From the NCBI GenBank assembly GCA_035533075.1, contig DATLUO010000235.1, forward strand, positions 1 through 33,163: a DNA stretch of 33,163 nt, given 5' to 3'. The DNA comes from Pirellulales bacterium. GTDB taxonomy: Bacteria > Planctomycetota > Planctomycetia > Pirellulales > JAICIG01. Below are positions 4,296 to 31,552 of this stretch, one piece after another. The notes beneath the pieces are model-generated. The model was not told where the DNA came from. It saw nothing but the letters and a program-made list of their open reading frames with translations, and did no database searches. Positions within the stretch are counted from its first letter, which is position 1, and every line of letters begins with the position of its first letter. The translations under genes were made by a program, and so were the position numbers.

Positions 4296-7200
4296 TCATT
4301 CCCACGACTGATAGAGCGGCAGATGGCGGTAATAGACCTCCAGCATCAACAGGCGAAGCGACGTGGCGTAGAGGCGTCCGCCCGATTGCTCCCACCCGTC
4401 GTGCGGATCCCAGGTGCCGGCCGTGTGCCCCTCCTTGATCTGCGACGATACGAGCAGGTCGCGGAGCCGCTCGTTCCAGGCCGTCCAATGGTCGCCTTGC
4501 AGGTGATACATCACCTGCGTGGCGTAGTACCAATAGTAGCTCGTCTCCTGGCCGGCCTGCGGCAGACGGTCGAGCAGGAACTTCGCGCCGGCCAAAAGCG
4601 CCGGGTCGTTGCGGCGGATGCCCAAAAACTGCCGGCAGAGGAGCCCTTCGGCCGTCATCGCCGGGCTGGATCCGGGGCCTTGGTAGCCGAAGGTGCCCAA
4701 CGCCTGCCCCGTGCCGGCCGACGCGTCGAGCCACTTGCTCGCCAGATCGAGCGCGGCCTTGGGAACGGTCAGCCCGGCCATCTCGCCGCTCTTCAAGGCC
4801 ATGACCTGCCAGCCGACGACCGACGTGTCGCCCGCCTCGCCCGGCTGATAACGCCAGCCGCCGGTGCCGGCATGCTGCGCGGCGACGATGAAATCGAGCG
4901 CCCGCTGGGCCGGCCCGCGCAGCCGTTCGTCCTGGCTCATGCCGTAGGCTTCGCAGAGCGCAATGGCGGCAATGCCGTGGCTATACATGAAAGCGTTCGA
5001 GGCCCCGTCGACAAACAGGTTGCCATCGGGCTTTTGCCGGCCGATGAGCCACTCCACCGCCCGCGCGACGGTGGGCCGATAGTCGCCCGCAAGCTGCGTG
5101 TGCCCGGCGGCCAGAAACGGCAGCAGCCCAAGACCGGTGGCCGCGGCGTCGCTGACGGTGTTGCCCGCTCCACTCGTGGCGGGCAGTTTCTTTTCCGGCG
5201 GATCGAGCTGGTGCAGGCTCCAATGGCCGTCGGTGTGCTGGTGCTCGGCCAGCCAGACGAGACCGCGCTTGACCGCCTCTTCGGTCTGCTGGTTGCCGCC
5301 CACCAGGTCGATGAACTCGCGCCGCGTGTCGCCCTGCCGCAGGGCAAACATGGCCCGCATGCCGACGTTGTCATCGGCAACCGCCACCGGCATGGCACGG
5401 GCGGCGGCACGCTGTAACTGCGTGGCCAACGGGCTGAGCGAAGGCGGCGCCTCGACGGCCTGCTCGGCCAACGTTCCCACGACCGTCCCCTTCTTGCCCG
5501 CCAGCCGCGGGCCGCCGGCTTCGAGCATTTCGTCGATCGGCCGCGGCACGCTCGGCGGCGCCGCTGGCGACATGACCGTGGCTGGAGCAATGGCCTTTTC
5601 CGGCGTCGCATCGACTCGCGTCAGGTTCGGCGGTGGTTCATCCGGCAGTTTCGCCGGCAGCTTTGCCAGAGCGACTTCGCGCGGCACGTCGATCTTCGCT
5701 GGCTGTGTGGATTGCGGCTCGGCCGGCACCGACTTGATTTGCCGGATCGTGACTGCCACGCGCGTCGATGCTGGCATGGCCTCGTCGGCTGACAGCTTTG
5801 GAGGCGCGATGACAGTAACTGCCGAAATGACTTCGGGCCGCTCGCGTTCCAGCACCTGCTTTTCCGCTGCCTTTTCGACCGTCGCGAGTGGGACGACTTC
5901 CGGATCGAGCTGCGCTGCCGACAGCATCGTATCGGCGCGGCGCGGCGGCAGCGCGACGACCGAAGCCGAGCCGTCTGTGGGCTCGGCGTACGCGGGCTGC
6001 GTCGCGACCGGCCCCTTCACCGGCCCCGGCAGTGGTTGCTCCGTCGCCGGCGCATCGCGGATCGTCATCAGGGCAGACGCGGCGCGCTCGAGCTCGACCT
6101 GCTTTTGAATTGCTTGCTCCTGGGGCGATGCGACCTTCGGCGGCGGCCCGGCCACTTGGGGATCGATTTGTGCCACCCGCACCGTCGCTTCAAGACGGCG
6201 CTCGACCTCCGCCGCCGCGTTCGACGCGGCTCTTGGAGGCGGCACAAAAATGACGCGGTCGGCGGGCAGGCGCCGCGCCAACTCGACGGGCAGCGTCGGC
6301 GCCGGCGTGTCGGCGTGTAGCGGGATATTCGTTGGCGCCGTCACCCGGCGTTCCACCGGCGGCACGAAGGTCGCCTCCACGCTCTTGAGATCGGCCACCT
6401 TCTCATAGACTTGCTCGCCGGGCAAGTGCGATTGGTGCAGGTTGTCGTCGAATAGTTCCGCTGCGCTGGTGACGCGAATCTCTTCGATCCGCTTCACGAT
6501 CTCCTGGCTGAGAGGCACCAGAAACATCAGCCACAACACGACCGCGTGCAACAGCAGACTGGCGGCCAGGAAACGGGCCATCGACGCCCGCCGCCGCACC
6601 CAGCCGGCCGAGAAGTAGACGACCGCGATCAGGGCCACCAGTGCGGCGGTCGCCAACAGCGCTTTCCACCACACGGCCCGCAGCGCTTGCCAGCGGCTGG
6701 TGTCCCAGACGGCAATCCGTTCGACTTCGGCCAGGCGGCTTTGATAGATCGAGGCCGAGCGGCCTTCGCTTCTGGCGAACGTGACGCGCAGCCCGTCAGG
6801 CGAAACCGCCGGATCGGTTTCATCCGCCACCGTGTTGATGCCCTGCCCCAGGCTCTCGACAGCGGCAGCATCGTCGTGCAATCGCAGGCGATAAAGATCG
6901 AAGTCTTTCTCGCCGCGGCGGTGCTGACGGTCGGAGCTGAAGTAGAGCACCGCACCGTCTTCGGCCAGGCACGGCGAGCGTTCGTTGACGGGCGAATTTG
7001 CCCGGACGAGCGGGGCGGCTTCGGACCATGCTCGATTGCTGGCTGTTCGGCGAGCGACGAACAGATCGGTCGTTGCTGTTTGCGTCCCGCGGTCGGAGGC
7101 GAAGTAAAGCTGCCGGCCGTCGGCGGCCAGCGCCGGATCGTATTCATTGGCCGGCGTGTTGACGGCATCACCCAGGTTCTTGGGCACGCCCCAGCCGGAT

Positions 7201-7673
7201 GCCCGTCGCTGGGAGACGTAGATATCGAACCCACCCTTGCCGCCGCGGCGGTTCGAGGCCAGATAAAGCTGCTTGCCATCGGCACTGACGGCCACACCGT
7301 TTTCGTCCCACGGCGTATTGAGTTCGGTGACGGCCGCGGCCGGTTGCCAGCGGCCGTTCTGCCAATGCGAGCGGTAGATGTCGGCATCGCCCTCCGCTCG
7401 CCGCACGGTGAGGTAGAGCGTCGCTCCATCGTCGGCCAGGCTGGGATGGCTGACCTCGTCGGGCGGACTGCGCGGCGGCAGCAAGTCGCTGAGCGCTTCG
7501 CCTGGCTGCCAGGCGAACAGCCGCATGGGTGCGGCGTCATCGAGCAGCCAGCGCTCTCGGCCGTCGAGCGTGACCAGCGCGTCGGTCCTTCGCGGCCGCG
7601 CCCAAATCGCCAGCGCGATCACCGCCCCGCAGGCGAGCCACAGCGGCCAGTGGCGAAGTCGAGGGCGAGGCAT
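4296..7673 (-). CDS. Membrane protein: PD40 propeller, TonB/TolA-like SxxxH helix, Pro-rich spacer, squalene-cyclase-like alpha/alpha domain
   Basis: Encodes 1125 residues. TM1 (about 9-25) anchors the N-terminus. Residues about 55-320 hold four or five PD40/WD40-like repeats (SADGKQLYLASNRRGG, AADGRQLYFASDRG, AEDGAVLYFSSDRQ, SPDGLRVTFARSEG). TM2 lies at about 337-358, then a positive RRRASMAR loop, then TM3 (about 368-388). TM3 contains S372-LLL-H376, the SxxxH pattern of TonB and TolA helices. Residues about 400-770 are a Pro/Ala-rich, low-complexity spacer. Residues about 810-1125 are a prenyltransferase/squalene-oxidase-type repeat domain (GLVWLAEHQHTDGHWSL, AVEWLIGRQKPDGN, ALDFIVAAQHAGTGGWRY). 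Inferred topology puts the PD40 and toroid domains outside the cytoplasm. The function is unknown; a terpene cyclase role is unlikely because no DxDD motif was seen. Confidence 0.9.
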   Translation of the reverse strand: MPRPRLRHWPLWLACGAVIALAIWARPRRTDALVTLDGRERWLLDDAAPMRLFAWQPGEALSDLLPPRSPPDEVSHPSLADDGATLYLTVRRAEGDADIYRSHWQNGRWQPAAAVTELNTPWDENGVAVSADGKQLYLASNRRGGKGGFDIYVSQRRASGWGVPKNLGDAVNTPANEYDPALAADGRQLYFASDRGTQTATTDLFVARRTASNRAWSEAAPLVRANSPVNERSPCLAEDGAVLYFSSDRQHRRGEKDFDLYRLRLHDDAAAVESLGQGINTVADETDPAVSPDGLRVTFARSEGRSASIYQSRLAEVERIAVWDTSRWQALRAVWWKALLATAALVALIAVVYFSAGWVRRRASMARFLAASLLLHAVVLWLMFLVPLSQEIVKRIEEIRVTSAAELFDDNLHQSHLPGEQVYEKVADLKSVEATFVPPVERRVTAPTNIPLHADTPAPTLPVELARRLPADRVIFVPPPRAASNAAAEVERRLEATVRVAQIDPQVAGPPPKVASPQEQAIQKQVELERAASALMTIRDAPATEQPLPGPVKGPVATQPAYAEPTDGSASVVALPPRRADTMLSAAQLDPEVVPLATVEKAAEKQVLERERPEVISAVTVIAPPKLSADEAMPASTRVAVTIRQIKSVPAEPQSTQPAKIDVPREVALAKLPAKLPDEPPPNLTRVDATPEKAIAPATVMSPAAPPSVPRPIDEMLEAGGPRLAGKKGTVVGTLAEQAVEAPPSLSPLATQLQRAAARAMPVAVADDNVGMRAMFALRQGDTRREFIDLVGGNQQTEEAVKRGLVWLAEHQHTDGHWSLHQLDPPEKKLPATSGAGNTVSDAAATGLGLLPFLAAGHTQLAGDYRPTVARAVEWLIGRQKPDGNLFVDGASNAFMYSHGIAAIALCEAYGMSQDERLRGPAQRALDFIVAAQHAGTGGWRYQPGEAGDTSVVGWQVMALKSGEMAGLTVPKAALDLASKWLDASAGTGQALGTFGYQGPGSSPAMTAEGLLCRQFLGIRRNDPALLAGAKFLLDRLPQAGQETSYYWYYATQVMYHLQGDHWTAWNERLRDLLVSSQIKEGHTAGTWDPHDGWEQSGGRLYATSLRLLMLEVYYRHLPLYQSWE

Positions 7674-7848
7674 TTTTCAGGGCCGGGGTTGAGAGATCCA
7701 TTGGTGGCTGGCTCAGAGCCTGGGCCGCCATCGTTGCATAAAGAATACTCTTAGCGAAGCGATTCCGGCTATATGGAGCAGCGTCACGAGAGCCAGGCAT
7801 GCCGGCCTACCGTGATCGGCGGATCCAACGCGGGCGGTGGCCCACCTC

Positions 7849-7879
7849 TTGACCCGCCGCGCGCGGCGGCATCTATTAA
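7849..7879 (+). promoter_or_regulatory. Candidate promoter for the DUF1501 gene with a palindromic spacer
   Basis: TTGACC at 7849-7854 and TATTAA at 7874-7879 are 19 nt apart, slightly wide for sigma-70. The spacer region holds a perfect 16-bp palindrome, CCGCCGCGCGCGGCGG, at 7854-7869, a possible operator. The DUF1501 start codon is 48 nt downstream. The hexamers are reasonable, but GC-rich palindromes arise easily by chance here. Confidence 0.35.
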
Positions 7880-7927
7880 CACACGTTGATGCGTTGACGC
7901 ACGAAGCACAGACCATCGGAGACATGA

Positions 7928-9313
7928 ATGCGAACATCGGGTGCGAAACTCAGCCGGCGGGAACTGATTGAAGTCGGCTTCTCGTCCGCGTTGGGAGCGG
8001 GAATCGCCGCCTTGCCGCGGCAGCCCGTGGGAGCCGCGGAGTTGCCTCGCGCCAAGTCGGTACTGTTTCTGTTCCTGTTCGGCGGCCCGAGCCATCTTGA
8101 CACCTTCGATCCCAAACCGGAGGCGCCGGCGGAAGTTCGCGGAGAATTCCAGACGATTGATACGGCCGTCAGCGGCACGCGAATCTGCGAGCACCTGCCG
8201 ATGTTCGCCCAACGCATGAACCGCTGGGCGCTGGTCCGCTCGATGACCTGCAATCCCAGCTTTGGCGACCATCGTTTGGCGGTGCATGGCTTGCTGGGAG
8301 GCATCGACGAGTTGCCCGCCGGCGCTGGACTGGCGGCCTCGCGGCGCGATTGGCCCTCGTGGTGCGCGGGCGTGGAATTTGCCCGCCGCGGCGGCGACGG
8401 TCTACCGGCCAGCGTCGTGTTGCCCGGCGAAGTGGTCGATCCGGGCACGGGACTCTATCCGGGGCAAAGCGGCGGTTTGCTGGGACCGCAATGCGATCCT
8501 TATCAGGTCCGCGACAACCCGGCCGATCCGAAGTATCTGGTCGACGCCAGCCTGCGGATGCCGCCCGGACTGACGATCGAACGGATGGCGTCGAAGCAGT
8601 CGCTGCTGGCCGATCTTCAGCGGCAACAGTCGGCGCTGGCGGCGGCGCTGGAAGCCGGCGCTTACGAGAACCGGCGCCGCGAAGCCTTCCGCGTGTTGAC
8701 CAGCGGCCGCTTGTCGCAGGCGCTGGATGTGTCGCAGGAACCGCCGGCGGTTCGCGACCGTTACGGCCGGCACGTGTTTGGCCAGTCGATGCTGATGGCG
8801 CGGCGGCTGATTGAGGCCGGCGTGCCGATCGTGCAGGCCAACATCAGCTATCAGGCCCTCTGGGACACGCACTACAACAACTTCGTCGCCTTGCGCGGTC
8901 TGCTGCCGCACCTCGACCGCGCGGCCTCGAATTTGATCGACGACATGCAGGCCAGCGGGCTGCTCGACGAGACGCTGGTGGTGATGATGGGCGAATTCGG
9001 CCGCACGCCGAAGCTGGCGATGCCCAACGGATCGGTCTCGTTCTTCACCAGTCCCGGCCGCGACCACTGGATGACGTGTTTTTTTGGCCTGTTTGCGGGC
9101 GCGGGAGTTCGCGGCGGCCAGGTCATCGGCCGCTCCGACGCGGTCGGCGGCTGGCCGGTGACGCTTCCCTATCGCCATTCCGACGTTGCCGCCACGGTCT
9201 ACTCGGCCCTGGGTATCGATCCCGCGCTGGAAATACACGGTCCCCAGGGACGTCCCTTGCGTCTCAACAGCGGCCGCGTGATGGAGGCCTTGTACACGGG
9301 ACGGGAAGCTTGA
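7928..9313 (+). CDS. DUF1501 (sulfatase-like clan) protein with Tat signal
   Basis: Encodes 461 residues. The N-terminus has a twin-arginine motif (SRRELIEVG) and a hydrophobic stretch ending in VGAAELP, indicating folded export. The next segment, VLFLFLFGGPSHLDTFDPKP, is the typical start of DUF1501 proteins, which belong to the alkaline-phosphatase/sulfatase superfamily. Further family landmarks are ICEHLPMFA, YGRHVFGQSMLMARRLIEAG and MMGEFGRTPK, with GRDHW before the end. The length is normal for the family. A GGAG about 8 nt upstream supports the ATG at 7928 over an out-of-frame ATG at 7924. In planctomycetes these genes are usually paired with a DUF1549/DUF1553 cytochrome partner; none is adjacent here. 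The substrate is unknown. Confidence 0.95.
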   Translation: MRTSGAKLSRRELIEVGFSSALGAGIAALPRQPVGAAELPRAKSVLFLFLFGGPSHLDTFDPKPEAPAEVRGEFQTIDTAVSGTRICEHLPMFAQRMNRWALVRSMTCNPSFGDHRLAVHGLLGGIDELPAGAGLAASRRDWPSWCAGVEFARRGGDGLPASVVLPGEVVDPGTGLYPGQSGGLLGPQCDPYQVRDNPADPKYLVDASLRMPPGLTIERMASKQSLLADLQRQQSALAAALEAGAYENRRREAFRVLTSGRLSQALDVSQEPPAVRDRYGRHVFGQSMLMARRLIEAGVPIVQANISYQALWDTHYNNFVALRGLLPHLDRAASNLIDDMQASGLLDETLVVMMGEFGRTPKLAMPNGSVSFFTSPGRDHWMTCFFGLFAGAGVRGGQVIGRSDAVGGWPVTLPYRHSDVAATVYSALGIDPALEIHGPQGRPLRLNSGRVMEALYTGREA

Positions 9314-10072: not shown

Positions 10073-13000
10073 TTATTGCTCGTCATCGCGCGCATCCGGA
10101 TCGCGCAGGCCGGTCAATTCATAAGGTTTGTGCCACCAACTTTTTTCCGACGGCGCCAACGCTTCGGCCACACACCGGCGGGCCACATTTTTCGCGCTTC
10201 TCAAGTCCAACGTCGGCGGATCCGGCAACGTGTCAACAAGCGACTCCGCCCATGTTGCGTCGACGACAGCCAACGATCCCCAGGCGAGACGCGAAGTCCA
10301 ATGCTCTCCGCCGGCGGTGAGCAGCGGTCCGCGCTCGGCGATCGGCGCCGCCAGAGCGCGCGCCGCCGCACGATCGTAGCGGCTCAAAAACATCGCCAGC
10401 GCGGCGGTCACGATCGCTCCGTCATGATTGGCCTTCGTCCGCGCCGCGCGGGGCGAACGCAAGGCCATCGCTCGCCACAGACAGTCCTCCAGCGACAACG
10501 CATCGACGCGCTCGACGACCGGCAGCAGCGCCGCAGCCAAGACCGCGGGATGCTCCCGGGCAGAGGCGGGGCCGGCACCCTCCGCGGCTGCGCGCTCGAA
10601 CAAGCCGAAAGCCTCGTCCAAGAGCGTCCTTGCCCGTGCGGCATCGCCCTGAACGAGTCCACTGGCCACGATCCCCAGAGCGTATCCGCGCTCGCTGATC
10701 TCCTCGCACTTCGGCGCCAAGCGGGCGGCGCGGTCGGCATCGGCGCCGGCCATGCGGTAGAGAACCGGCAATGCTTGCCAGTAAAGCGCTGTGGAAAACT
10801 CCAACTCATCGAGCAGGCGCTCGGCGGCGGTGGGGTCGTAGCCGGCAAGCCCACGGGCGACCCCAGCCCAATAGCGATCGGCAAACTGGCCGGTGAAGCC
10901 GGCGCTCAACTTGATCGCCGCCGGGCCATCGATTCTCGCCAGCGAGCCGGCGAAGCGGGCGCGGAGGTGAGGGGCGAGCTCGTGGGCGCGCTGGGCCGCC
11001 TCGCTGGGCACCGGAAGCTGCTCGGCCAATTTTTCTCCTTCACGCAACAACGCCGTGCCGCGCTCGACCTCGCCCAGATCGAGCCAAGCCTCGGCGATTT
11101 TCCCCATCAGCTCCGCTCTCTGCGCGACGTCGGGCTCGGCACGCGCGTGCAACAGCGCGCTGGCGAGCAGGTCCTCCTTCTGCTGACGCTCTTCGTCGGT
11201 CAAGCTGGCGCTGGCCGCAAGATAGAGCCGGCCTCGATGGTGTGGCGAGCTAATCGCCTCGCCCAGCGCCAACGCTTCCGCCAGGTCCTCCGGAAGCATC
11301 GCCGCCGCCGCCTGAAAGCGGAATTGTTCCGCGAAATCCGCCGCGCCCAGCAGCTTGAAAATCGCGAGGCCGGCAAAGTCGGAGATGCGGCTTGGGTCGA
11401 GCGTGGCCAGCGTTGCCATCAGCCAGATTTTTTCGGGCTGCACGCCGACCTGCTTTACGCTCGCAGCGATTGGCTCGACCAAACGCAGGGCCGCGGCGCG
11501 CCGCTGGGCGCGAGTGAGCGGCTCTTCGAGCGAACTCAGCCGGTTCATGGGAGGCTCGCTTTCTCGCCTCACCGTCAATTCGACCGGCTTCACGTCGCCG
11601 GCCAGCAAGAATCCTTGCAGTGGGTAACCATCGCCGCTCGCCAGCAGAAAGACCGGACCCAGGTTCAGACCCGGCAGTCGGAAGCGTCCCTCTTCGTCCG
11701 TCACCGTTTGCGTGCATCGCGGACCGTCGCCCGTTTGAAACACCTTTAATCCGGCGACCGGCTCGCCTCGCCGATCGATGACGCGGCCGTCGATCGCGCG
11801 CAGCGCCGGTACGCGATCCAGCACCAGGTTACCCAAGGCCGGCGTTTTCATCCGCGTGGGGTCGATGAATTCGGTGACGGCCGGCAACATGCCGCCGGCG
11901 AAGGCTTCCACGCGGTACTCGCGGCCCCGCGCGAGCACTGCCGGCGTGCGGAACCGGCCGTCGGCATCGGTCAAGAGCCGTTGGCCGCCACCGAACTCGA
12001 CGTAGCCCTCGTCTTCGGCCCGCCCCTCGGCGCCGCGCCGCTGCCAGGCAATCCGCACGACGGCGCCGGCAATCGGCCGCTTTTCCGTGTCGACGACCCG
12101 GCCTTCGAGATACGTCGTGTTGGACGGATCGACCACCAACTCCAGAGGCTTTTGCGCGGCGGCATGAACTGCCACCGCTTCCCTGGTCGTACCCTGTGCG
12201 GAGAAGGCCGACAATTTGAGTTGTACGTTGGGCGCGACCCCCTCGAGCGTAAAGCCGCCGTCGCGGTCGCTGCGACCATGCGCCGAATTCTCCCCGCCAG
12301 AGGCCAAATCCCAACGTGCTTCGATTTCCGCTCCGCCAACGCCCTTTCCCCGTCGGTCGACGACTCGGCCGCGAACCGCGACGCCTCGCGCCAATCGCAG
12401 CGGCCTCAATTCAACACGCGCGGCCCCTTCGGGCACGGGCTGCGAGTCGAGCGTGTACTCTGGAAAGTAATAGTTCCGCGGTATGCGCCGAAACGACGGT
12501 GAAGCCTGGCCGGGCAGCAAAAGCGCGCCATAGCGGCCACGTTCATCGCTGCGGGGGTCGTCGTCCGGCGACACGAAACGATCGAGCCACACGGCTGCGC
12601 CGGCAAGCGGTTCGCCGCTCTCACGGTCGCGCACCACGCCTTCCACGCGCACGGCACGCTCCAGGTTGATCGTCAACTCGCTCGCGATCCCCTCGGCAAC
12701 CGGCCGCCCGGTCACTTGATGACAGCGGAAGGGCAACTCGGCGCGCAACTGCGGAACCACGGAGAGCGCGCCGGCGGCAATGGCCGGCACTTCAAAGCGT
12801 CCCTCGGCGTCGGTGATCGTTTCGGCCAGTCCGCCGCCCGCCAGGTCGTCGCCTGCCGTCAACCAGGTCGCCAGTCGGATCGGTATGGCGGCGATGGCGC
12901 GCGGGTCGTCGCCGGTCAGACGACCGCGGACCACTGCCACCGGTAACAGTGCGACCCGCCGCGCGCCTCCTGCGTCGGCCGCCGGCAGGCTGGCCCATTG

Positions 13001-13594
13001 AACGCCGTATTCGGGAGATTCGACGCGGACGAGGTCGAGGCCGGGCGGCGCGACGCCGTGCAAAGTGACGCGGCCCGCATCGTCGGTCGTCGAGGCCAAT
13101 TGCTCGGCAAGCTCGCGCGGCAGGCGGAGGCCGTTCACCTGCTCGGGCAGAACGCGCGCCTTCGGCAACGGCCGTTCATCGGGCCCGACGATCACCAGCG
13201 GCAACGACGGTGCAGCGGCCAGGCGTACTTCCACCGGCGCGGCGCGAGGGGGCCAGTCGCGTCCGACAGGGTACGTTGACAGGGCCGAACCGGCATGCCG
13301 CACCCAAAGCACCAACGACCTTCGCGCCCAGTCGCTCTCAGGAACCTCCTCCGGCAGCCCGATGGCGAAGCTGCCCGTGTCATCGCTCCGGGCGCGGGCC
13401 ACGATCTTGGGCCGAGCCGGCACGTCGCCTTGGCGGAGTGCCCCGACCCGCGAGTTGATCGTCGGCCCATCCGCGAGGAACAACTCCGCGCCGCCCGCCG
13501 GCTTGCCGTCCGTGTCGACGACCGTGCCCGATAGGGTGACTTCCGGGTCGCTGGCGGCAAGCGTGAGGACGAATAGAAGAGCGGTGTGGAGCAT
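10073..13594 (-). CDS. Large secreted protein, carboxypeptidase-regulatory-like domains plus helical C-terminal half (paralog 1)
   Basis: Encodes 1173 residues with a signal peptide (MLHTALLFVLTLAAS). The N-terminal 670 residues hold about six Ig-like carboxypeptidase-regulatory-type units, each starting like VTLSGTVVDTDGKPAGGAEL, VRVEGVVRDRESGEPLAGAA, VRGRVVDRRGKGVGGAEI or LEGRVVDTEKRPIAGAVV. The last unit (about 605-665: GRVIDRRGEPVAGLKVFQTG then DGRFRLPG-type) is shared with the genes at 16234 and 19786. Residues about 690-1173 are helical and TPR/HEAT-like (AELMGKIAEAWLDLGEVERG). They end in a block around residue 1039, CLWRAMALRSPRA then LAMFLSRYDRAAARALAAP, also shared by all three. It probably sits outside the cytoplasmic membrane; function and partner are unknown. 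A weak GGACGA precedes the ATG. Confidence 0.92.
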   Translation of the reverse strand: MLHTALLFVLTLAASDPEVTLSGTVVDTDGKPAGGAELFLADGPTINSRVGALRQGDVPARPKIVARARSDDTGSFAIGLPEEVPESDWARRSLVLWVRHAGSALSTYPVGRDWPPRAAPVEVRLAAAPSLPLVIVGPDERPLPKARVLPEQVNGLRLPRELAEQLASTTDDAGRVTLHGVAPPGLDLVRVESPEYGVQWASLPAADAGGARRVALLPVAVVRGRLTGDDPRAIAAIPIRLATWLTAGDDLAGGGLAETITDAEGRFEVPAIAAGALSVVPQLRAELPFRCHQVTGRPVAEGIASELTINLERAVRVEGVVRDRESGEPLAGAAVWLDRFVSPDDDPRSDERGRYGALLLPGQASPSFRRIPRNYYFPEYTLDSQPVPEGAARVELRPLRLARGVAVRGRVVDRRGKGVGGAEIEARWDLASGGENSAHGRSDRDGGFTLEGVAPNVQLKLSAFSAQGTTREAVAVHAAAQKPLELVVDPSNTTYLEGRVVDTEKRPIAGAVVRIAWQRRGAEGRAEDEGYVEFGGGQRLLTDADGRFRTPAVLARGREYRVEAFAGGMLPAVTEFIDPTRMKTPALGNLVLDRVPALRAIDGRVIDRRGEPVAGLKVFQTGDGPRCTQTVTDEEGRFRLPGLNLGPVFLLASGDGYPLQGFLLAGDVKPVELTVRRESEPPMNRLSSLEEPLTRAQRRAAALRLVEPIAASVKQVGVQPEKIWLMATLATLDPSRISDFAGLAIFKLLGAADFAEQFRFQAAAAMLPEDLAEALALGEAISSPHHRGRLYLAASASLTDEERQQKEDLLASALLHARAEPDVAQRAELMGKIAEAWLDLGEVERGTALLREGEKLAEQLPVPSEAAQRAHELAPHLRARFAGSLARIDGPAAIKLSAGFTGQFADRYWAGVARGLAGYDPTAAERLLDELEFSTALYWQALPVLYRMAGADADRAARLAPKCEEISERGYALGIVASGLVQGDAARARTLLDEAFGLFERAAAEGAGPASAREHPAVLAAALLPVVERVDALSLEDCLWRAMALRSPRAARTKANHDGAIVTAALAMFLSRYDRAAARALAAPIAERGPLLTAGGEHWTSRLAWGSLAVVDATWAESLVDTLPDPPTLDLRSAKNVARRCVAEALAPSEKSWWHKPYELTGLRDPDARDDEQ

Positions 13595-16233: not shown

Positions 16234-18918
16234 TCAAAACTCTATTTGCAGCTCGTTATCAGGTCCACCGGGCAACCAATAGGCATACCACAGATACTTC
16301 CCTAGAAGAATGCGAGTGCGGATGGACGGCTGAATGGCAAGTGCGTGAGCGAACTCATAGCGCCAGGAGAAATAGTAGCGATGGTCGTCGATATCTTCTT
16401 GTTCAAACACCCTGGCCGCCCATTTCGGATCGATGGCGCAAGCGGCGTCAACCGCCGCACGAACACAAACGCTCGTCTGGTCCCGAGAGCGGCGTTTTAG
16501 CCGATCGACGACCGGTTCAAGCACCAGCCGCGCCACGTCGCGGTCGTATTGCGCCAGCAAGAGCGCCAGCGTGGCTGCTTCAGCCAGCCGGTCCTGCTGA
16601 TCGTCGTGCGGGTATGAGCGGCGAAACGAAACCGCGCGCCAAAGGTATTCGCGCACCAACTGCGGGTCGATGGCTTCGACAACCGGCAGCAACGCGGCCG
16701 CGGCCACGGCGGCGCTCTGCGGTCCGTAGAACCGCCCCTCGTCGGCCTCAACCAGAGAGTGGAGTATGCCAAAGGCCTCGTTAAGCATGGAACAAGCACG
16801 GCGACGATCGGAGATTGCGAAACCGCGGGCCGTCCAACCGAGCGACAGGGCACGCAAGTAGGGACTGGTGAGGCGCCCGGCCAACTTGCGCGCTCGCTCG
16901 CCATCGACGGTGGCCATGCGATAGCAGACCCGCACGGTAGAAAATCCCAGGCGGTACTCGTCGCCGATCATGGCGAGCACCCGCTCCGCTTCGGCCGGCT
17001 GCTGGGCGGCCACGCGATAGGCGATCTTGCCGAAGATGAGATCGCGCTCTTTTTCTTCGGCCACGTCGGTTACCAGGGACAGCGCGGCCGGCAAGTCGGT
17101 GCGAGCGAGGATATCGGCGGTTTTGCGACGTATCATCGCGCCGTCGCCGGCGATTGGCAGCGTCGCCGCCATGACGCTTGCGTCAGCCAGCAGCGCCCGC
17201 GCACGATCGGTCTGGCCCAAATCAAGGAGTCCATCGGCCACGCAGGCTTGCCAAAAAGAGCGCAAATTGTCATGCGTCGAAGCCAAGAGCGCTTCATCGA
17301 GCAGCGCGCGCTTGGCCGCAGGGTCGGCGGTCGGCAGAGCGCCCGCCAGCTCAAACAACGCCCGAGTACGGCGGCCGGCGCCCTCGATGGCGTGGGCGAC
17401 CGCCGCCGCCTCGTCGGGATGGTCGTGTACGAGCAGCCTGGCGATTTGCGTAAGCAAAAAGTCCTTGTCATCGACGGTCAAATTGGGGATGGCGCCATTG
17501 TCGATCCGTTCCAGAGCGTCGGCCGGATCGATCACCGTCCAATAGTAGAGGGCAGTCCAGCGCTCGTCGCGGTTGCCCGACCGCAGCGTGCGCTCGACAT
17601 CGGCGCCGATCACCTGTCTGCCCAGTGCCAACTCTTGTTCGCGATCCAGCACGTTCGCCCTGAGCAAAGTTAACGGCGCAACGGTCTCGTCGTCATGCGT
17701 AAGGACCAACTTGGTGTCAGCGGATTCGGCGATCGGCTGGCCAGTGAAGCGATAGCCGTCAAGCTCCGCAAAGACGAACGCCGAGTTTTCAGCGACATCA
17801 GGCAGCGTAAAACGCCCGTCGGCGCCGGTGATGGATGTGGTCCGCCGCACGCCGTCACCCGACTGGTAAAGCCGCACACCGGCCAGCGGATGGCCTCGGC
17901 GATCGACGACGCGCCCTGCCACGGTCCGCAATCGTCGCAAGCAAATGTCTGGAGCGTCTGCGACCTTGTTCTCTGGCCCGGCGGGCTGAAACCACGCGCC
18001 GCGTGCCGGGATAAATCCGTCGCAAGACACAAGCAGCGAGTATTCGCCCTTGCAACTCAGCACCGGCGGCGTTTGAAAACGGCCGTCCGAATCCGCGGCG
18101 ATGTCGCCGAGGGTTGAAACGAAAAGCGGCGTTTGAACGAGAACGAAGCCATTCGCGTGGCGCCATCGAGTCCAAGTTTGAACCTTTGCGCCGGAAACGG
18201 CGTGGCCGGCGCCGTCGACCACGCGACCCGAAAGTGAAACCATGCCGCTCGGCGACAGTTTCAACTCGACCGCAGCATCCGCATCGGGCGGCGGGGCCAC
18301 GAACGCTTCGGTTGCCATGTCGCCGCCCGCAGCCCAAAAACGCACCCCTCGGTCGAGCGCGTTCGGATTATCGACCGGGTCGATGCCCGTGAACGCGAAG
18401 TCGCCACGCTCATCGCTCCGAGTCGTGATCCATTTGGTGCCGTGCGCATAACTTTCCAGCCACGGCTCATGGGCTGGCCACGACGCCTGTACCAAGGCGC
18501 CGGCGACGGGCTCGCCTTCGGCGTTGACGACTCGCCCGCGCACGCTACGGCCGGGGCGCACTAGAATCGGTGGCAACGATTGCTCGGGTTGGTTGGCGTC
18601 CAACTCGAGGGGGGCACGAAACGCTCGCAACGGTTTCACCAACGGCGGGGGCAATTCGATAACCTGGCCAGTAATAACACCGGGGCCGATTCGACACTCA
18701 TATCGACCGTCCGTGCCTGATTCGACACGTGCTTGGGTTTGGCCGTTCGACAGCACCACGACGGCACCGGCAATCGGGCGGTTTGTGCCATGTTCACGAA
18801 TCAAACCGGTAACGCGGACCGTCTCCGCAGCGCCAGCCAAGCCGGCGAGCAACGGCCCCGCCGGAAGCAGACAAGACGCCGCAATCCATGCACCGCCGAG
18901 AATCAACAACCGTCGCAT
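16234..18918 (-). CDS. Large secreted protein, carboxypeptidase-regulatory-like domains plus helical C-terminal half (paralog 2)
   Basis: Encodes 894 residues. The signal peptide is MRRLLILGGAWIAASCLLPA followed by GPLLAGLAGAAE. Ig-like regulatory units start at VRVTGLIREHGTNRPIAGAV, VRGRVVNAEGEPVAGALVQA, VSLSGRVVDGAGHAVSGAKV and VAGRVVDRRGHPLAGVRLYQ. The last is the QSGDG unit (about residue 333) shared with the other two paralogs. The helical half runs from about 430 to the end (ALLDEALLASTHDNLRSFWQ, EAERVLAMIGDEYRLG). It contains the shared block near residue 756: YLWRAVSFRRSY then TLALLLAQYDRDVARLVLEP. It has fewer beta units than paralogs 1 and 3, which explains its length. A GGAG about 8 nt before the ATG supports the start. 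The 469-residue gene follows 48 nt downstream. Function unknown. Confidence 0.92.
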   Translation of the reverse strand: MRRLLILGGAWIAASCLLPAGPLLAGLAGAAETVRVTGLIREHGTNRPIAGAVVVLSNGQTQARVESGTDGRYECRIGPGVITGQVIELPPPLVKPLRAFRAPLELDANQPEQSLPPILVRPGRSVRGRVVNAEGEPVAGALVQASWPAHEPWLESYAHGTKWITTRSDERGDFAFTGIDPVDNPNALDRGVRFWAAGGDMATEAFVAPPPDADAAVELKLSPSGMVSLSGRVVDGAGHAVSGAKVQTWTRWRHANGFVLVQTPLFVSTLGDIAADSDGRFQTPPVLSCKGEYSLLVSCDGFIPARGAWFQPAGPENKVADAPDICLRRLRTVAGRVVDRRGHPLAGVRLYQSGDGVRRTTSITGADGRFTLPDVAENSAFVFAELDGYRFTGQPIAESADTKLVLTHDDETVAPLTLLRANVLDREQELALGRQVIGADVERTLRSGNRDERWTALYYWTVIDPADALERIDNGAIPNLTVDDKDFLLTQIARLLVHDHPDEAAAVAHAIEGAGRRTRALFELAGALPTADPAAKRALLDEALLASTHDNLRSFWQACVADGLLDLGQTDRARALLADASVMAATLPIAGDGAMIRRKTADILARTDLPAALSLVTDVAEEKERDLIFGKIAYRVAAQQPAEAERVLAMIGDEYRLGFSTVRVCYRMATVDGERARKLAGRLTSPYLRALSLGWTARGFAISDRRRACSMLNEAFGILHSLVEADEGRFYGPQSAAVAAAALLPVVEAIDPQLVREYLWRAVSFRRSYPHDDQQDRLAEAATLALLLAQYDRDVARLVLEPVVDRLKRRSRDQTSVCVRAAVDAACAIDPKWAARVFEQEDIDDHRYYFSWRYEFAHALAIQPSIRTRILLGKYLWYAYWLPGGPDNELQIEF

Positions 18919-19785: not shown

Positions 19786-22700
19786 TCACTGAATCCCCTG
19801 CCACATCATCGGCATTCGCAAGTAATCCGAGGCGGCCCGCCAGCGGGCCTCGCCTTGCTTCGACAGAATGTCGACCAGCCCGCCGCGCGCACGCGCTTTG
19901 GCGACGTTGGGGGCGCCGTTCGGGGCATCGTTGGGCAACATCTCAAACTGCGCGACCCCCCACGCGGGGTCGATCATCGCCGCCGCGGCAAACAAGCCCT
20001 TATATTCCCCCGGTGAATTCAGCTTCCGGTACGCCTCGTCGAGCAGATCGCCATAGAATTTGCGGGCCAAATCGCGGTCGTAACGTGAGAGGAACATCGC
20101 CAGATATGCCCGTGACAGCAGAATCGGCTCCTCGCGATCGCCCTGCTTCGCCAACGGCAAACGCAGCGAGATGGCCCGCCAAAGATACTCCTCCACGCGG
20201 TCGGGCTGAAGCTTCTCGACGATCGGCAAGAACCACGCCGCCAAAACCGGCGCGGTGTCGTAGTTATTGAAATGCGGCTCTTCGCTCTTAGCCAATTTCA
20301 CCAGCAGGTTATATGTCCGCTCAAGCTGGGCCATGGCCGCCGCCGCGTCGGTGTCGACGAGTGCCTCCGCCGTCAGTCCTTCGGCGTAGGCCCTGAGCCG
20401 AGGAGTCGCGATCAGCTCGACCACTTCGTTCGCTCGCGTGAGATCCACGGGCGCCATGAGATACGCCACTCGAACAGCGAGCCACTCGCGCCCAGAATCG
20501 TTGCGCATCAGTTTGAGCACGCGCACGGCATCGGCCGGATGGGCCGCCGCCAAGATGCGCGCGATATTGCCGTGATGCCGCTCGTATTCGCGGTCGTCCT
20601 TAACGTCCTTGATCAGCGCCAGCGCGGCGGGCAGGTCGACCGTGGCCAACGCCTCGGCGGTGACCCCGCGCACATAGGCGGCCACGTTGTCGAGCGGCAG
20701 CGCGTCCACATCCGGCTTGATCGTGGCGATCAGCTTCCGCGCACCGTCCGCATCGCCACTTTCTGTCATCAACCGCGCGATGTAACCGGTCAGCGCCATC
20801 CGCATCGTCGGATCGCCCGCGCCCCGCAGGTGCAGGCGCGCTTTCTCCAGCCAATCGAGCTTGAGCTCCCGTTGCAAGGCCGGCAATCCGTCGGCCGACA
20901 GCACATAGCCGGCCGCCCGCGAGTAAGCATCGTCGAGCGCTTCGATAATCGCCATGGCGTCGTCGGGATGTTCCGCCGACCAGTGCTTGGCAACCTCGAC
21001 CCGCAGCATGTCGGCCATGTCTCCCTTGACGCCCAGCGCCTCCAGCCGATCGAGCGCCGCGGCTGGGTCGACCTTGACCAACTCACGCAACACCGCCCCA
21101 CGATCGCGGTCGTCTATTGCCTTCGGCAGAGCATCGAGCGCGGGCTTCAGCACGCGCCTGGCCAAGGCGAGATCGGCCGCCGGATCGACGTCGGGCAGCG
21201 TGGCCAAACGGCGCTGGGGCGGTTCGCTGGCCCGCGTGAGCACACTCTCGACATCGTCGCCGGCTTTCAGCGGTTGCCCGTGAAAGCGGAAGCCTTCCTT
21301 CTCGACGAACACGAAGGCGGCTTCGTTTTGATAACCCGACAACTCGAAACGTCCGTCGTTGTCCGAGGCGGCTTGCGTGCGTTGCGGGCCGTCGCCCGAT
21401 TGAATGACCGTCGCGCCGGACACCGGCCGGCCTTGGCGATCGACAACGCGCCCGGCGATTGACCGCAGCGAGTCGATCACGACGTCTGGAAAGACAGGCG
21501 GCTTGTCCGCGGCGAACTCAACCCACTCGGTCCATTGCGGCGTGTGGCCCTCGGTGCCGATTTGAACGCGGTAGGGGGCGCCGACTTCGATCCACGCGCG
21601 GTACTCGCCGTTGGCGTCGGTCGACAGTTCTCGCGGCTCGCTATACCAAACCACGGGGTTTTCCACCGATTGTCCCTGGAAATCGACCTTGGTCACGGCT
21701 TTTTCGATCTTCGCCCCCGCCACGGTACGGCTGGCGCCATCGACCACTCGGCCGCGGGCGAGCGCGAGCTCGATGGGTGGCAGTTCAAAACCGGCTTTGC
21801 CGCCGGGCACCTGATAATTGTGATGGAGAAACCAGGCCGGCGCCCCGCGCGACTTGCTGAACTGCAGATACATATTGAACAGTCCGGGCAACCGCAAGAA
21901 ATCGAAGTGTCCGTCTTCGCCGGTGGCGGCCGGAGACGACGAAGAACCGTTGTTCTCGTTCACACCCACCATCACGTCGGACAGCGGCTTGCCAGTGGCC
22001 GCCTCTCGCACCACGCCCTGCACGCGGACTGCCGGCTTGAAAGGAATGGTGATTTCGGCAGTTTTGCCGACTGCGACGGCAACCTCATTGGGCACCGCGG
22101 GCAGAAACGGCCGTTCCGGTTTGCGAACGACCGAGATGTAGCGGATCGTGCCCGCCGCGATGACCGGAATCTGAAACCCTCCTTCTTTGTCGCTCGTCGC
22201 CGTCGCTTCGGCCAGCGTCGAGTCGGGGCTTGGGTTGTTATCGCTGGGATAGCTCAAAAGCCAGATGCCGACACCATCGACCAAATCTTTTTCCGGCGCA
22301 ACAAACCGCCCGTGGACACGGCCAACCGGTCTGAGCGCAATCCTGATCTCCGCCGGTTCTCCAGCCGTCGACGGCCTTAAATATCGCGATTGAGTACCGT
22401 ACTGGTCGGTGACCACTCGGACCTGCGAAAGCTCGTCGCGGCTGAAGGCCGAAATCGTGGCCTTGCCTTCGCGATCGGTGGTCGCCGCGGCACAGAGCTG
22501 CGATGCTTCGGGCAAGAGCCGGCTGCCGCCTTCGTGATAAGTGATTACCGGCAGCGTTACTTGCGCCTCCGGCACCGGCTTGCCGTCCGGCCCAACGACA
22601 AGGACAGGCACATTCGCGGCCTCGGGCAGCACGAGCCGCACTTCTTCCGCCCGCGGCTTGCCGTCCTCAAACAGCAGCTTATGAGTCAGGCGTCGACCGC

Positions 22701-23004
22701 GGACGCCCGCCCAAATCTCTCCGCGTGGCCAAATGGCCGCCCCAACATCCGTGGGCGGTTGCAAAGTGAACCGCCCCTGTTCATCACTCTTGGCGTCGAG
22801 GGTCTGGTTCTTGCGTTCTTTGTTCCGCCAGGAATAGACCACGTCGGCCGCGGCGATCGGCTGGCCTTTCTCATCGACTACCACGCCCGACAGCGGCTTC
22901 ATCGCTGCCTCGTCTTTCCCTCGTTGGGCAGGATCAGCGGCCAACGTCGGCCACGCGGCGGCGAGAACAAGTAAAAGAACAACACGGCCGATCAGCGCTT
23001 TCAT
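19786..23004 (-). CDS. Large secreted protein, carboxypeptidase-regulatory-like domains plus helical C-terminal half (paralog 3)
   Basis: With the ATG at 23004 it encodes 1072 residues. This start is preferred to one 14 codons upstream because GGAGG lies about 8 nt before it and the signal peptide (MKALIGRVVLLLVLAAAWPT LAAD) begins there. Ig-like units include MKPLSGVVVDEKGQPIAAAD, VRVQGVVREAATGKPLSDVM, ALARGRVVDGASRTVAGAKI and SIAGRVVDRQGRPVSGATVI. The last leads to QSGDGPQRTQ (about residue 525) and GFRFHGQPLKAGD, closest to the family pattern. The helical half (about 590-1072) has repeats such as VRGVTAEALATVDLPAALAL and the shared block near 938: YLWRAISLRLPL then YLAMFLSRYDRDLARKFYGD. 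It is a single gene with its own strong promoter. Function unknown. Confidence 0.92.
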   Translation of the reverse strand: MKALIGRVVLLLVLAAAWPTLAADPAQRGKDEAAMKPLSGVVVDEKGQPIAAADVVYSWRNKERKNQTLDAKSDEQGRFTLQPPTDVGAAIWPRGEIWAGVRGRRLTHKLLFEDGKPRAEEVRLVLPEAANVPVLVVGPDGKPVPEAQVTLPVITYHEGGSRLLPEASQLCAAATTDREGKATISAFSRDELSQVRVVTDQYGTQSRYLRPSTAGEPAEIRIALRPVGRVHGRFVAPEKDLVDGVGIWLLSYPSDNNPSPDSTLAEATATSDKEGGFQIPVIAAGTIRYISVVRKPERPFLPAVPNEVAVAVGKTAEITIPFKPAVRVQGVVREAATGKPLSDVMVGVNENNGSSSSPAATGEDGHFDFLRLPGLFNMYLQFSKSRGAPAWFLHHNYQVPGGKAGFELPPIELALARGRVVDGASRTVAGAKIEKAVTKVDFQGQSVENPVVWYSEPRELSTDANGEYRAWIEVGAPYRVQIGTEGHTPQWTEWVEFAADKPPVFPDVVIDSLRSIAGRVVDRQGRPVSGATVIQSGDGPQRTQAASDNDGRFELSGYQNEAAFVFVEKEGFRFHGQPLKAGDDVESVLTRASEPPQRRLATLPDVDPAADLALARRVLKPALDALPKAIDDRDRGAVLRELVKVDPAAALDRLEALGVKGDMADMLRVEVAKHWSAEHPDDAMAIIEALDDAYSRAAGYVLSADGLPALQRELKLDWLEKARLHLRGAGDPTMRMALTGYIARLMTESGDADGARKLIATIKPDVDALPLDNVAAYVRGVTAEALATVDLPAALALIKDVKDDREYERHHGNIARILAAAHPADAVRVLKLMRNDSGREWLAVRVAYLMAPVDLTRANEVVELIATPRLRAYAEGLTAEALVDTDAAAAMAQLERTYNLLVKLAKSEEPHFNNYDTAPVLAAWFLPIVEKLQPDRVEEYLWRAISLRLPLAKQGDREEPILLSRAYLAMFLSRYDRDLARKFYGDLLDEAYRKLNSPGEYKGLFAAAAMIDPAWGVAQFEMLPNDAPNGAPNVAKARARGGLVDILSKQGEARWRAASDYLRMPMMWQGIQ

Positions 23005-23051
23005 GGGCGTAATCCTCCAACGGTTCGCCCCCGTCGCCGACTTCACTGCTG

Positions 23052-29053: not shown

Positions 29054-31552
29054 CTACCGCGTTTTCGTCTTCGCCTTCGCCCTGGCGGTTGCGGGCGCGG
29101 AACTGTCGGCCAGCCAGCGGAGCACGAAACGGGCCTGAATTTCCAGTCCGCCCGACCAATAGTCGTCGAGCAATCCGGCCAACACGACGTCGGTCGGGGC
29201 ATCGGGCAAGGTACGCTGCCGCTCGACGAAATCGCCCAAGAACGAGGCCAAGGGCTTGGGCAGCACGCTGATTGCCGCCTGCGTCTGGGCCGGATCGAGC
29301 CGGGCCAACTGGCCCAGACCCTTGAGTGCGGCATCGACGGCCGGCGCGCGGCTTTCGAGCACCAAGGAGTAATCGCGGCGGAAGTCGGCGATGCTCAATT
29401 TCTCCAGCCCGGCCGCGGCAAAGCGATTGACCAGCGCCGGCTCGATCATGCCGGCCAAGAGGGCCGCTGCCAGGTGCCCCAAGGGACCGGTCGAGGCCGA
29501 GTCGAGCCGCATCAACTCGCGCTGCGCGCCGCGGTCGTCGCTGGCGTAATAGAGCACGGCCGCCCGTGCCAGGCGACAGGGCCAGCTCTCGGCGGGAAAG
29601 ATTTCGCGGCAGGTGTGCAGCGTTTCGGCCGCCAGCCAGAGCGAGTTGTCGCTGCGCGGGGGATGGCCCGGCCGGAGCGGCTCGGCCGGAATAAAGTAGT
29701 GATCGGCCTCGCTCGCCGGAGCGGCTTGCCCATCCAGGTCGGGCAAGAAGTACGCCGCCAGCAACCCCTGCCAGACATGGAAACCTTGCTTGTCGCCGGC
29801 CAGCGCCACACCTTCCCAGGCCCGCCAGAGATGGGCCAGCTCGCAGATGCCGAAGGCCGTCATGGCCGTCACCGGCCGGCGCGGGTCGTGGTCGTTGCGA
29901 TCGCCGCTCGTGATGCGCCGCATGTCGGCGATCGAGTTTTCCAGCCGTCGCGGGGCGGCCGAGAGCGTCGCCTCTTGTTCGTGCTTGGCGTCGAACACGG
30001 CGGCCTTCAACAACCGGCCGGTGGCCGCGTCGGCTTCGAGCAATGCGTTTTTCGTTTTGATCCGCAGCACCCCCTGCTCGACCTTGCAAGCGGCGTCGGG
30101 CACGTGGGCCAAGGCGATGAACGCGGCCGGGGCCAAATCGGCATCGACGAGTACGGGCTGGGCGGGCTTCGATGCGTCGGCCCGTTTCACCTCCGGGTCG
30201 AGCGAAAGGGCCAGCTTGCGCGGCTGCCGCGGATCGGGGTGCAGCTTCAGGCGGAGCGACAATTGTTTCTCGCCCGGTGCGGTGGCGAACAGCCGGTCTC
30301 GCATCGGCGAAAAGATGGCAATTTGCTCGGCGGTGATTTCCAGTCCGGCCAGACAGCGCAGCGTTTCAACTTTGGGCGGTGCCGTCCCGGCCAGGCTCCG
30401 CAACTTGAACAACACGCCTCGCGTGAGCGCCCGACTGGGATCGCTCACGTCGGCACGCACGAAGACGCCGCGGGCCGACACCACCGTTTGCACCGTCCGC
30501 ACGCCCAGCGAAGCGTCGCGGAGCGTCAAAACCAAATCTTCCTTCCCGGTGTGGAACTGTTCGGTCAGCCAGCCGCGCAGCCGCAGCAACGCCTGCTCTT
30601 CGGCCGAGAACGGTTCGTCCAGCAGGGGACCATCGGCGGCCTCGATCAGCTTGAGGGTCAACTTCGGCGGCTGGCCCGCTTGTTTGGGCATTTCGGGAAT
30701 CGCGGCGGAGAACGCGAAGCGGCCAGATTCATAGAGCCGCGTCTGGAGGTTCGACAGCCGATTGCGGTCGAACGGCTGACCGGGCGCGACGTTCAAGAAG
30801 CGGCCGATCGCCTCGGCCGCATGCCTTTGAGCGCCGACCACTTCGACCGCGCCGAACACGCCCGGCGGCCCTTCGTCTTCGACTTCGACGACCAGTTCGG
30901 CGAACCCGCGCCCTTCGAGCGGCACCACGTGGACATCCAGCTTGGGAAAAAAATAGCCATGCTGGGCAAAAGCCAGGTAGACCTGACGCTTGAGCTGCTC
31001 GCGGGACCAATGGTTGAACCGCGCCGGCTGGCCGGCGATCCAGATCGGCTTCTCGCCGAAATCGTCGATCGCGACCAGGTCTTCGGTGGCCTTCCAGGCA
31101 ATCCGGGCGTCGTCGCGATCGACCGGGTGCGCGGCGGCCAGCCATTCGGCGAGGTCGGCCGGGGCGATGTGCGTCGCGCCCACCATTCGCACCGGGCCGG
31201 CTCGATAGCGCGGACCCTCCTGCGCCACCACGACGATGCGCCGCGACTGCAAATTGGGCCGGACTTCGACGACGGCGTTGGCAAAGCCTGCCCGGCGGTA
31301 GCCGGCTTCCAGGCGGCGGCCAATGGTCTTCAACAGCGGATCGAGCGCGGCCGCCGGTTCGGCCGCCAACAGGTATTCCAGGTCGCTGGCCAGGGCCTCT
31401 TTCAATTGGTCGGGCGTGGTGAACCGTGCCCCGGCGATATCGAGCCGGTCGACGGATCCCAGGTCGCCGACGGTGGGCGGCGCCGCGCCGGCGGCAGCGG
31501 CGCAAGAGTACGATAAAACAAAGTACAGCAAGGAGTTAAAATCACGGCGCAT
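29054..31552 (-). CDS. Exported POTRA-domain protein without a BamA/TamA barrel
   Basis: Encodes 832 residues. The signal peptide is MRRDFNSLLYFVLSYSCAAA followed by AGAAPP. Residues about 30-270 read as POTRA-like units: LDIAGARFTTPDQLKEAL, then RRLEAGYRRAGFANAVVEVR, IVVVAQEGPRYRAGPVRMVG, VYLAFAQHGYFFPKLDVHVV, and FGAVEVVGAQRH...FLNVAPGQPFDRNRLSNLQT RLYESGRF. These are the family's beta-alpha-alpha-beta-beta pattern. The next stretch (about 300-530) is mixed, with LALSLDPEVKRAD, and the C-terminal third (about 580-832) is helical. No 16-strand outer-membrane barrel or C-terminal aromatic signature follows; the protein ends in TARAKAKTKTR. By POTRA knowledge it may bind outer-membrane or secretion partners in the periplasm. 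A GAGG about 8 nt upstream supports the start. Confidence 0.87.
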   Translation of the reverse strand: MRRDFNSLLYFVLSYSCAAAAGAAPPTVGDLGSVDRLDIAGARFTTPDQLKEALASDLEYLLAAEPAAALDPLLKTIGRRLEAGYRRAGFANAVVEVRPNLQSRRIVVVAQEGPRYRAGPVRMVGATHIAPADLAEWLAAAHPVDRDDARIAWKATEDLVAIDDFGEKPIWIAGQPARFNHWSREQLKRQVYLAFAQHGYFFPKLDVHVVPLEGRGFAELVVEVEDEGPPGVFGAVEVVGAQRHAAEAIGRFLNVAPGQPFDRNRLSNLQTRLYESGRFAFSAAIPEMPKQAGQPPKLTLKLIEAADGPLLDEPFSAEEQALLRLRGWLTEQFHTGKEDLVLTLRDASLGVRTVQTVVSARGVFVRADVSDPSRALTRGVLFKLRSLAGTAPPKVETLRCLAGLEITAEQIAIFSPMRDRLFATAPGEKQLSLRLKLHPDPRQPRKLALSLDPEVKRADASKPAQPVLVDADLAPAAFIALAHVPDAACKVEQGVLRIKTKNALLEADAATGRLLKAAVFDAKHEQEATLSAAPRRLENSIADMRRITSGDRNDHDPRRPVTAMTAFGICELAHLWRAWEGVALAGDKQGFHVWQGLLAAYFLPDLDGQAAPASEADHYFIPAEPLRPGHPPRSDNSLWLAAETLHTCREIFPAESWPCRLARAAVLYYASDDRGAQRELMRLDSASTGPLGHLAAALLAGMIEPALVNRFAAAGLEKLSIADFRRDYSLVLESRAPAVDAALKGLGQLARLDPAQTQAAISVLPKPLASFLGDFVERQRTLPDAPTDVVLAGLLDDYWSGGLEIQARFVLRWLADSSAPATARAKAKTKTR

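Follow-up and report, generated by a model that had tools for sequence, protein, structure and literature searches.

A propeller-toroid protein of a Pirellulales bacterium as a putative proton-driven envelope transducer comparable to TonB and TolA

Ser28 of TolQ and Ser34 of ExbB contact His22 of TolA and His20 of TonB, respectively, in cryo-EM structures (PMC12215075). This histidine has been argued to be part of the binding interface and not of proton transfer (PMC8928145), and its replacement by Asn in TonB is reported as fully functional, to judge from the title of Swayne and Postle (2011) as cited in PMC8928145. The Ser and the His belong to a longer motif, SHLS (S-x3-H-x6-L-x3-S), of which the Leu and the second Ser are less conserved in Ton (PMC12215075). 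Force transducers that end in something other than a TonB domain are already known: vWA-tipped ones, also present in Planctomycetes, were described by Williams-Jones et al. (2025; PMC12204202).

The window analysed here is a stretch of 33,163 nucleotides from a Pirellulales bacterium (assembly GCA_035533075.1, contig DATLUO010000235.1). It contains, at 4296..7673 of the (-) strand, a gene with its ATG at 7673 and its stop at 4296, which encodes a protein of 1125 amino acids. This protein is read as a proton-motive-force-driven trans-envelope transducer that would work like TonB or TolA, with a probability of about 0.77, on the basis of sequence comparison and structure prediction and without any experiment.

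Domain order, toroid fold and predicted topology

Translation, Pfam and AlphaFold show directly the following domain order: a first transmembrane segment (TM1), a PD40 propeller, TM2, TM3 with the SxxxH motif, a Pro/Ala-rich spacer and an alpha/alpha toroid, all encoded on the (-) strand. TM1, or uncleaved signal-anchor, covers residues 13-28 (7590..7637), is preceded by the Arg-rich N-terminus MPRPRLRHW and matches an AlphaFold helix (residues 6-24); it falls under the hydropathy cut of 1.5 and is detected in homologues. The TolB/PorE-type PD40 beta-propeller, residues about 60-324 (6702..7496), is supported by four Pfam stretches (PF07676, E 3.5e-28) and by the modelled strands. TM2, residues 339-358 (6600..6659), identified by hydropathy and an AlphaFold helix (326-362), is predicted to run from outside to inside, and is followed by the Arg-rich loop RRRASMAR, residues 359-367 (6573..6599), predicted to be cytoplasmic. 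TM3, residues 368-388 (6510..6572), has the sequence RFLAASLLLHAVVLWLMFLVPLS, lies just after the basic stretch WVRRRASMAR and is covered by an AlphaFold helix (365-385). It contains S372-LLL-H376, with the S372 codon at 6558..6560 and the H376 codon at 6546..6548, and alignment and motif controls make it the predicted motor-docking helix. The spacer, residues 392-768 (5370..6500), comprises 377 residues with 31% Pro plus Ala; Pro alone reaches 14.1%, against 4.9% elsewhere in the protein, and pLDDT is mostly <50. It contains a conserved island, YEKVADL, residues 423-429 (6387..6407), 47 residues past H376, which is found 47-49 residues C-terminal of the His in seven distinct PD40 members of the order. 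Its position is motor-box-like and its role is unproven. The full-length AlphaFold model shows propeller strands, transmembrane helices, an unstructured spacer of ~370 residues and the toroid.

The toroid, residues 771-1122 (4308..5363), has a squalene-hopene-cyclase-like fold. AlphaFold, run with a 74-row family alignment, gives a pLDDT of 95.5 for residues 771-1125, and the best structural match is squalene-hopene cyclase 2sqc (Z 27.0, 285 residues, rmsd 3.0 A); Pfam gives a weak match to SQHop_cyclase_C (2e-6). A reading of the sequence alone had placed in this one chain a PD40 propeller, an S372-LLL-H376 helix behind a positively charged loop, a long Pro/Ala-rich spacer and a squalene-cyclase-like toroid, and the four elements are confirmed. 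The alpha/alpha toroid fold is common to squalene-hopene and type II terpene cyclases, and the resemblance to the former in both sequence and structure would suit an ordinary membrane-tethered hopanoid or terpene cyclase bearing SxxxH by chance. Such an enzyme is scarcely credible: the toroid fold is present, but residues 771-1125 lack DxDD, the acid motif of cyclases, and the candidate was rejected on that ground. Unlike those enzymes, the protein has a single toroid, tethered by a spacer to a predicted motor-docking helix; moreover, the family-wide conservation of the His within an otherwise hydrophobic helix and the ExbBD operon, both described below, argue against a cyclase.

The topology is inferred. 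Because the N-terminus and the TM2-TM3 loop are Arg-rich and there are three transmembrane segments, the spacer, together with the propeller and the toroid, is predicted on the periplasmic side. The sequence-only reading had set the propeller on the same side as the toroid, in agreement with this prediction; a cytoplasmic spacer, which would have refuted that reading, is not predicted.

Three large neighbours of the gene in the window, at 10073-13594, 16234-18918 and 19786-23046 (-), encode proteins of 1173, 894 and 1086 amino acids, which have CarboxypepD_reg repeats and long C-terminal regions that resemble one another; they are apparently paralogues. Another gene, at 29054-31552 (-), encodes a protein of 832 amino acids in which a surface-antigen repeat of the POTRA type is the only Pfam match.

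The SxxxH helix and the motor side

The PD40 class contains 28 intact non-redundant PD40-toroid homologues from across Planctomycetota, after removal of near-identical entries. The motif His is present in all 28, and the H376 column is invariant in a full-length alignment of 27 rows; the position of S372 is occupied by Ser in 21 proteins and by Ala in seven, so the conservation on which the sequence-only reading depended holds entirely for the His and partly for the Ser. The sole PD40-class exception listed is a split open reading frame in locus L195, the other half of which carries SVMAH. In the long class without PD40, 47 of the 52 proteins show [SACG]xxxH; two of the five exceptions have Asn and two have Tyr in place of His, and one (L057) is an error in picking the transmembrane segment. 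Short members with a single transmembrane segment show [SACG]xxxH in 79 of 94 cases, and Asn replaces His in 10 more. Labels of multiple or single transmembrane segments were assigned by hydropathy only and mislabel some proteins (TM3 of L057 and TM1 of the window protein), and class counts were therefore taken from the deduplicated set.

Among the family members with several transmembrane segments, SxxxH is present in 66 of 91 last transmembrane windows and in 3/165 earlier windows of the same proteins, and the transmembrane windows of other genes at the same loci show it in 64 of 1374. The motif is thus far above chance, and these internal and background controls led to the rejection of a chance occurrence. 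Of the complete SHLS motif, the window protein has only the first Ser and the His, with M383 and P387 at the positions of the Leu and the second Ser.

On the motor side, the profile of the associated ExbB-type proteins matches the solved TolQ and ExbB structures, with its best score to TolQ. The Ser of motor TM1 that aligns with TolQ Ser28 and ExbB Ser34 is invariant, by direct observation, in 34 of 34 sequences. These motors do not conserve the Trp four residues after it (Trp32/Trp38), the partner that completes the contact with the His. The Asp pattern of the ExbD transmembrane segment is kept in 52/54.

If the His serves a binding interface and not proton transfer, as argued for TonB and TolA in PMC8928145, the SxxxH helix could be a mere assembly anchor for ExbBD, in a structural or sensory protein through which no force is transmitted. 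This is quite improbable, given that every long member has a long Pro-rich spacer before its terminal domain (median of 426 residues in the PD40 class and 798 in the long class), which is the anatomy of a transducer.

Family distribution, gene order and effector exchange

The toroid family is present in 245 of the 246 sampled genomes of the order and in 178/199 of the phylum, and the genome of the window contains about a dozen toroid paralogues. Several nearly complete planctomycete genomes of the phylum sample (families f62, f93 and f94) lack it. A scan of genome contigs with a single protein as query gave no match, and the alignment-based scan gave 80 loci, all with planctomycete titles except one MAG.

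Gene order was observed directly, at loci for which 2 kb or more of upstream sequence is available. Of the 27 such loci in the PD40 class, 26 have ExbB and/or ExbD immediately upstream in the same orientation, and 25 have a TPR gene, which usually precedes ExbB/ExbD. The long class shows the same ExbB and/or ExbD arrangement in 38 of 43 loci and a TPR gene in 32. The linkage of ExbBD to toroid genes spans several classes of the phylum, and the N-termini of a subset of the operon TPR proteins, inspected by eye, have signal-like hydrophobic segments. In the short class ExbBD is adjacent in only 12 of 80 loci, although most members carry SxxxH; those without adjacent ExbBD may share motors in trans. 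At locus L126 (G171), an in-frame TGA apparently interrupts the PD40-toroid gene (7235-9301, +) upstream of the part encoding TM3 and the toroid, and the motor genes are still adjacent. At L190 and L194 the open frame runs past the toroid into an extra segment that is PDZ-like by eye. At L091 (contig C144 of the genome of the window), a gene at 6330-7508 (+), directly upstream of one ExbB and two ExbD genes, encodes a 393-amino-acid protein with an SxxxH-type transmembrane helix, SSLAIHVLLVLLLLL, and no Pfam match, possibly another transducer of unknown kind.

The expectation of ExbBD genes beside homologues was borne out in the PD40 class; it fails for the window gene itself, the sole exception (1/27), and tblastn finds neither ExbBD nor an ExbBD remnant in the window. 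Contig C11 of the same genome contains an orphan TPR-ExbB-ExbD set, which shares 75% (ExbD), 56% (ExbB) and 53% (TPR) identity with the set preceding the closest homologue of the window gene (G010, L038); the next paralogues of the genome share only 28-35% with the G010 set. The six best matches of the C11 ExbB among the collected motors all come from PD40-toroid operons, and tblastn detects no toroid gene or remnant beside the C11 motor. The window protein and the G010 protein are sisters (support 100/98) in a clade with otherwise motor-linked members. Because the orphan C11 motor is most like the G010 set and no toroid lies beside it, this looks like a split operon, with the transducer on the contig of the window (C235) and its TPR-ExbB-ExbD set likely on C11, although a misassembly of the draft genome is not wholly excluded. 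A paralogue of the same genome (L060, contig C135) keeps TPR-ExbB-ExbD and toroid together. Between its ExbD and toroid genes, at 6246-8721 (+), lie a DNA methylase and a Bpu10I-type restriction endonuclease (PF09549, E 3e-90).

Three loci of genus g120 keep the operon, the PD40 propeller and the SxxxH helix, and a beta-rich C-terminus containing CarboxypepD_reg replaces the toroid: L184 (6321-9104, -), L186 (6164-9109, -) and L188 (7999-10782, +). This is an effector swap in one genus, and it bears on whether the toroid could be a motor-coupled enzyme acting on a glycan or lipid, where the motor would position it and the output would be catalysis and not pulling. The nearest folds of the toroid are enzymes (squalene-hopene cyclases, cellobiose 2-epimerases, GH76 mannanases and AprG), and aromatic and polar residues, Y897, H899, W940, Y942 and D949, are invariant. 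However, besides the lack of DxDD, no catalytic set was identified, and the exchange of the C-terminus in g120 suggests binding rather than one fixed chemistry. An enzymatic output is accordingly held to be unlikely.

Proposed working and comparison with described systems

Docking and force transmission are inferred from the parallel with TonB and TolA, and coupling to an ExbBD motor from sequence and gene order. In the transducer reading, H376 (and S372) would let TM3 dock on TM1 of a pentamer of the ExbB/TolQ type, with an ExbD/TolR dimer in the pore of the pentamer. Proton flux would move the motor and so pull on or reorient the TM3 helix, and the Pro/Ala-rich spacer would relay this movement across the periplasm to the C-terminal toroid, which would grip a periplasmic, cell-wall or outer-membrane ligand, as yet unidentified. 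The secreted TPR protein would probably act as a partner or regulator, as would the PD40 propeller, which lies on the side of the toroid and is held in place by TM1 and TM2, one at each end. Counting against the transducer reading are the absence of ExbBD next to the window gene and most short-class genes, the Ala in 7/28 proteins, the Tyr in two long-class proteins, the missing Leu and second Ser of SHLS and the unconserved motor Trp. The earlier proposal of an energised envelope protein with a toroid as its effector end is nevertheless supported by motif conservation and gene order, and the family points to an undescribed proton-powered machine of the cell envelope.

No match to the TonB_C domain was found in the genome of the window, and none to TolB_N (PF04052), for which control genomes were positive; the possibility that this genome encodes a canonical TonB or TolB at another locus was rejected on these grounds. 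One TonB-dependent receptor barrel (L284, C131:40357-41961; PF00593, E 1.3e-19) is present despite the lack of a detectable TonB_C. The absence of both domains supports a guess, at somewhat less than even odds, that the protein helps to hold or remodel the envelope in a Tol-like way. A more specific proposal is a replacement of Tol-Pal, in which TPR, ExbBD and the PD40-toroid protein would be the planctomycete counterpart of CpoB-TolQR-TolA-TolB (Pal is not covered), acting in outer-membrane constriction, with propeller and transmembrane helix fused into one chain. The missing domains, the best motor score to TolQ, the recall of CpoB and TolB by the TPR gene and the propeller, and the presence of the toroid family, not of the complete operon, across most of the phylum sample agree with it, but PD40 propellers are widespread and the toroid is unlike TolA domain III, and the proposal remains tentative, with the balance leaning against it. 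Equally speculative is the broader claim that canonical Tol-Pal and TonB transducers are replaced in Planctomycetota by a TolQR/ExbBD-powered machine of their own, composed of TPR, ExbB, ExbD and a propeller/toroid transducer, and that an enlarged set of SxxxH-toroid paralogues serves as alternative effectors on a few shared motors. Culturable strains offer a way to check it, for example Blastopirellula marina, in which an ExbD-linked member of the family (L276) occurs.

The outer membrane and very wide periplasm of Planctomycetota have long been debated. If the transducer reading is true, it provides testable genes for the coupling of inner-membrane energy to the outer envelope in Planctomycetota without TolB or TonB_C, a role for a large family that usually carries no other annotation than prenyltransferase/squalene oxidase repeat protein, and, for proton-driven 5:2 motors, one more non-TonB effector class besides vWA. 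The literature searched, whose coverage was partial, contained no toroid end, fused propeller or phylum-wide operon of this kind, and the words squalene and toroid are absent from the main text of PMC12204202.

The window protein shares with TonB and TolA an SxxxH helix after a basic segment, predicted to be cytoplasmic, a Pro-rich spacer (domain II), whose periplasmic side is here a prediction, and, in its homologues, adjacent ExbBD/TolQR-type motor genes with the conserved TM1 Ser. In contrast to them, it has three transmembrane segments, a PD40 propeller in front, a spacer of ~377 residues and a toroid in place of TonB_C or TolA III, without the Leu and second Ser of SHLS and with a motor lacking the Trp; since the tests for the C-terminal domain and for the full SHLS motif fail, it is not a member of the TonB or TolA family. 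The vWA transducers (PMC12204202) likewise show an SHLS-type transmembrane helix, a linker and a non-TonB C-terminal domain, with TPR and tolQR-like genes next door, but their effector is a vWA fold and they have no propeller, whereas the window protein has a toroid and no vWA domain. As in Tol-Pal, a PD40 propeller, a TPR protein, a TolQR-like motor and a transducer are encoded together; in contrast to Tol-Pal, the TolB_N domain is absent, and the propeller and the transducer of this family form one polypeptide.
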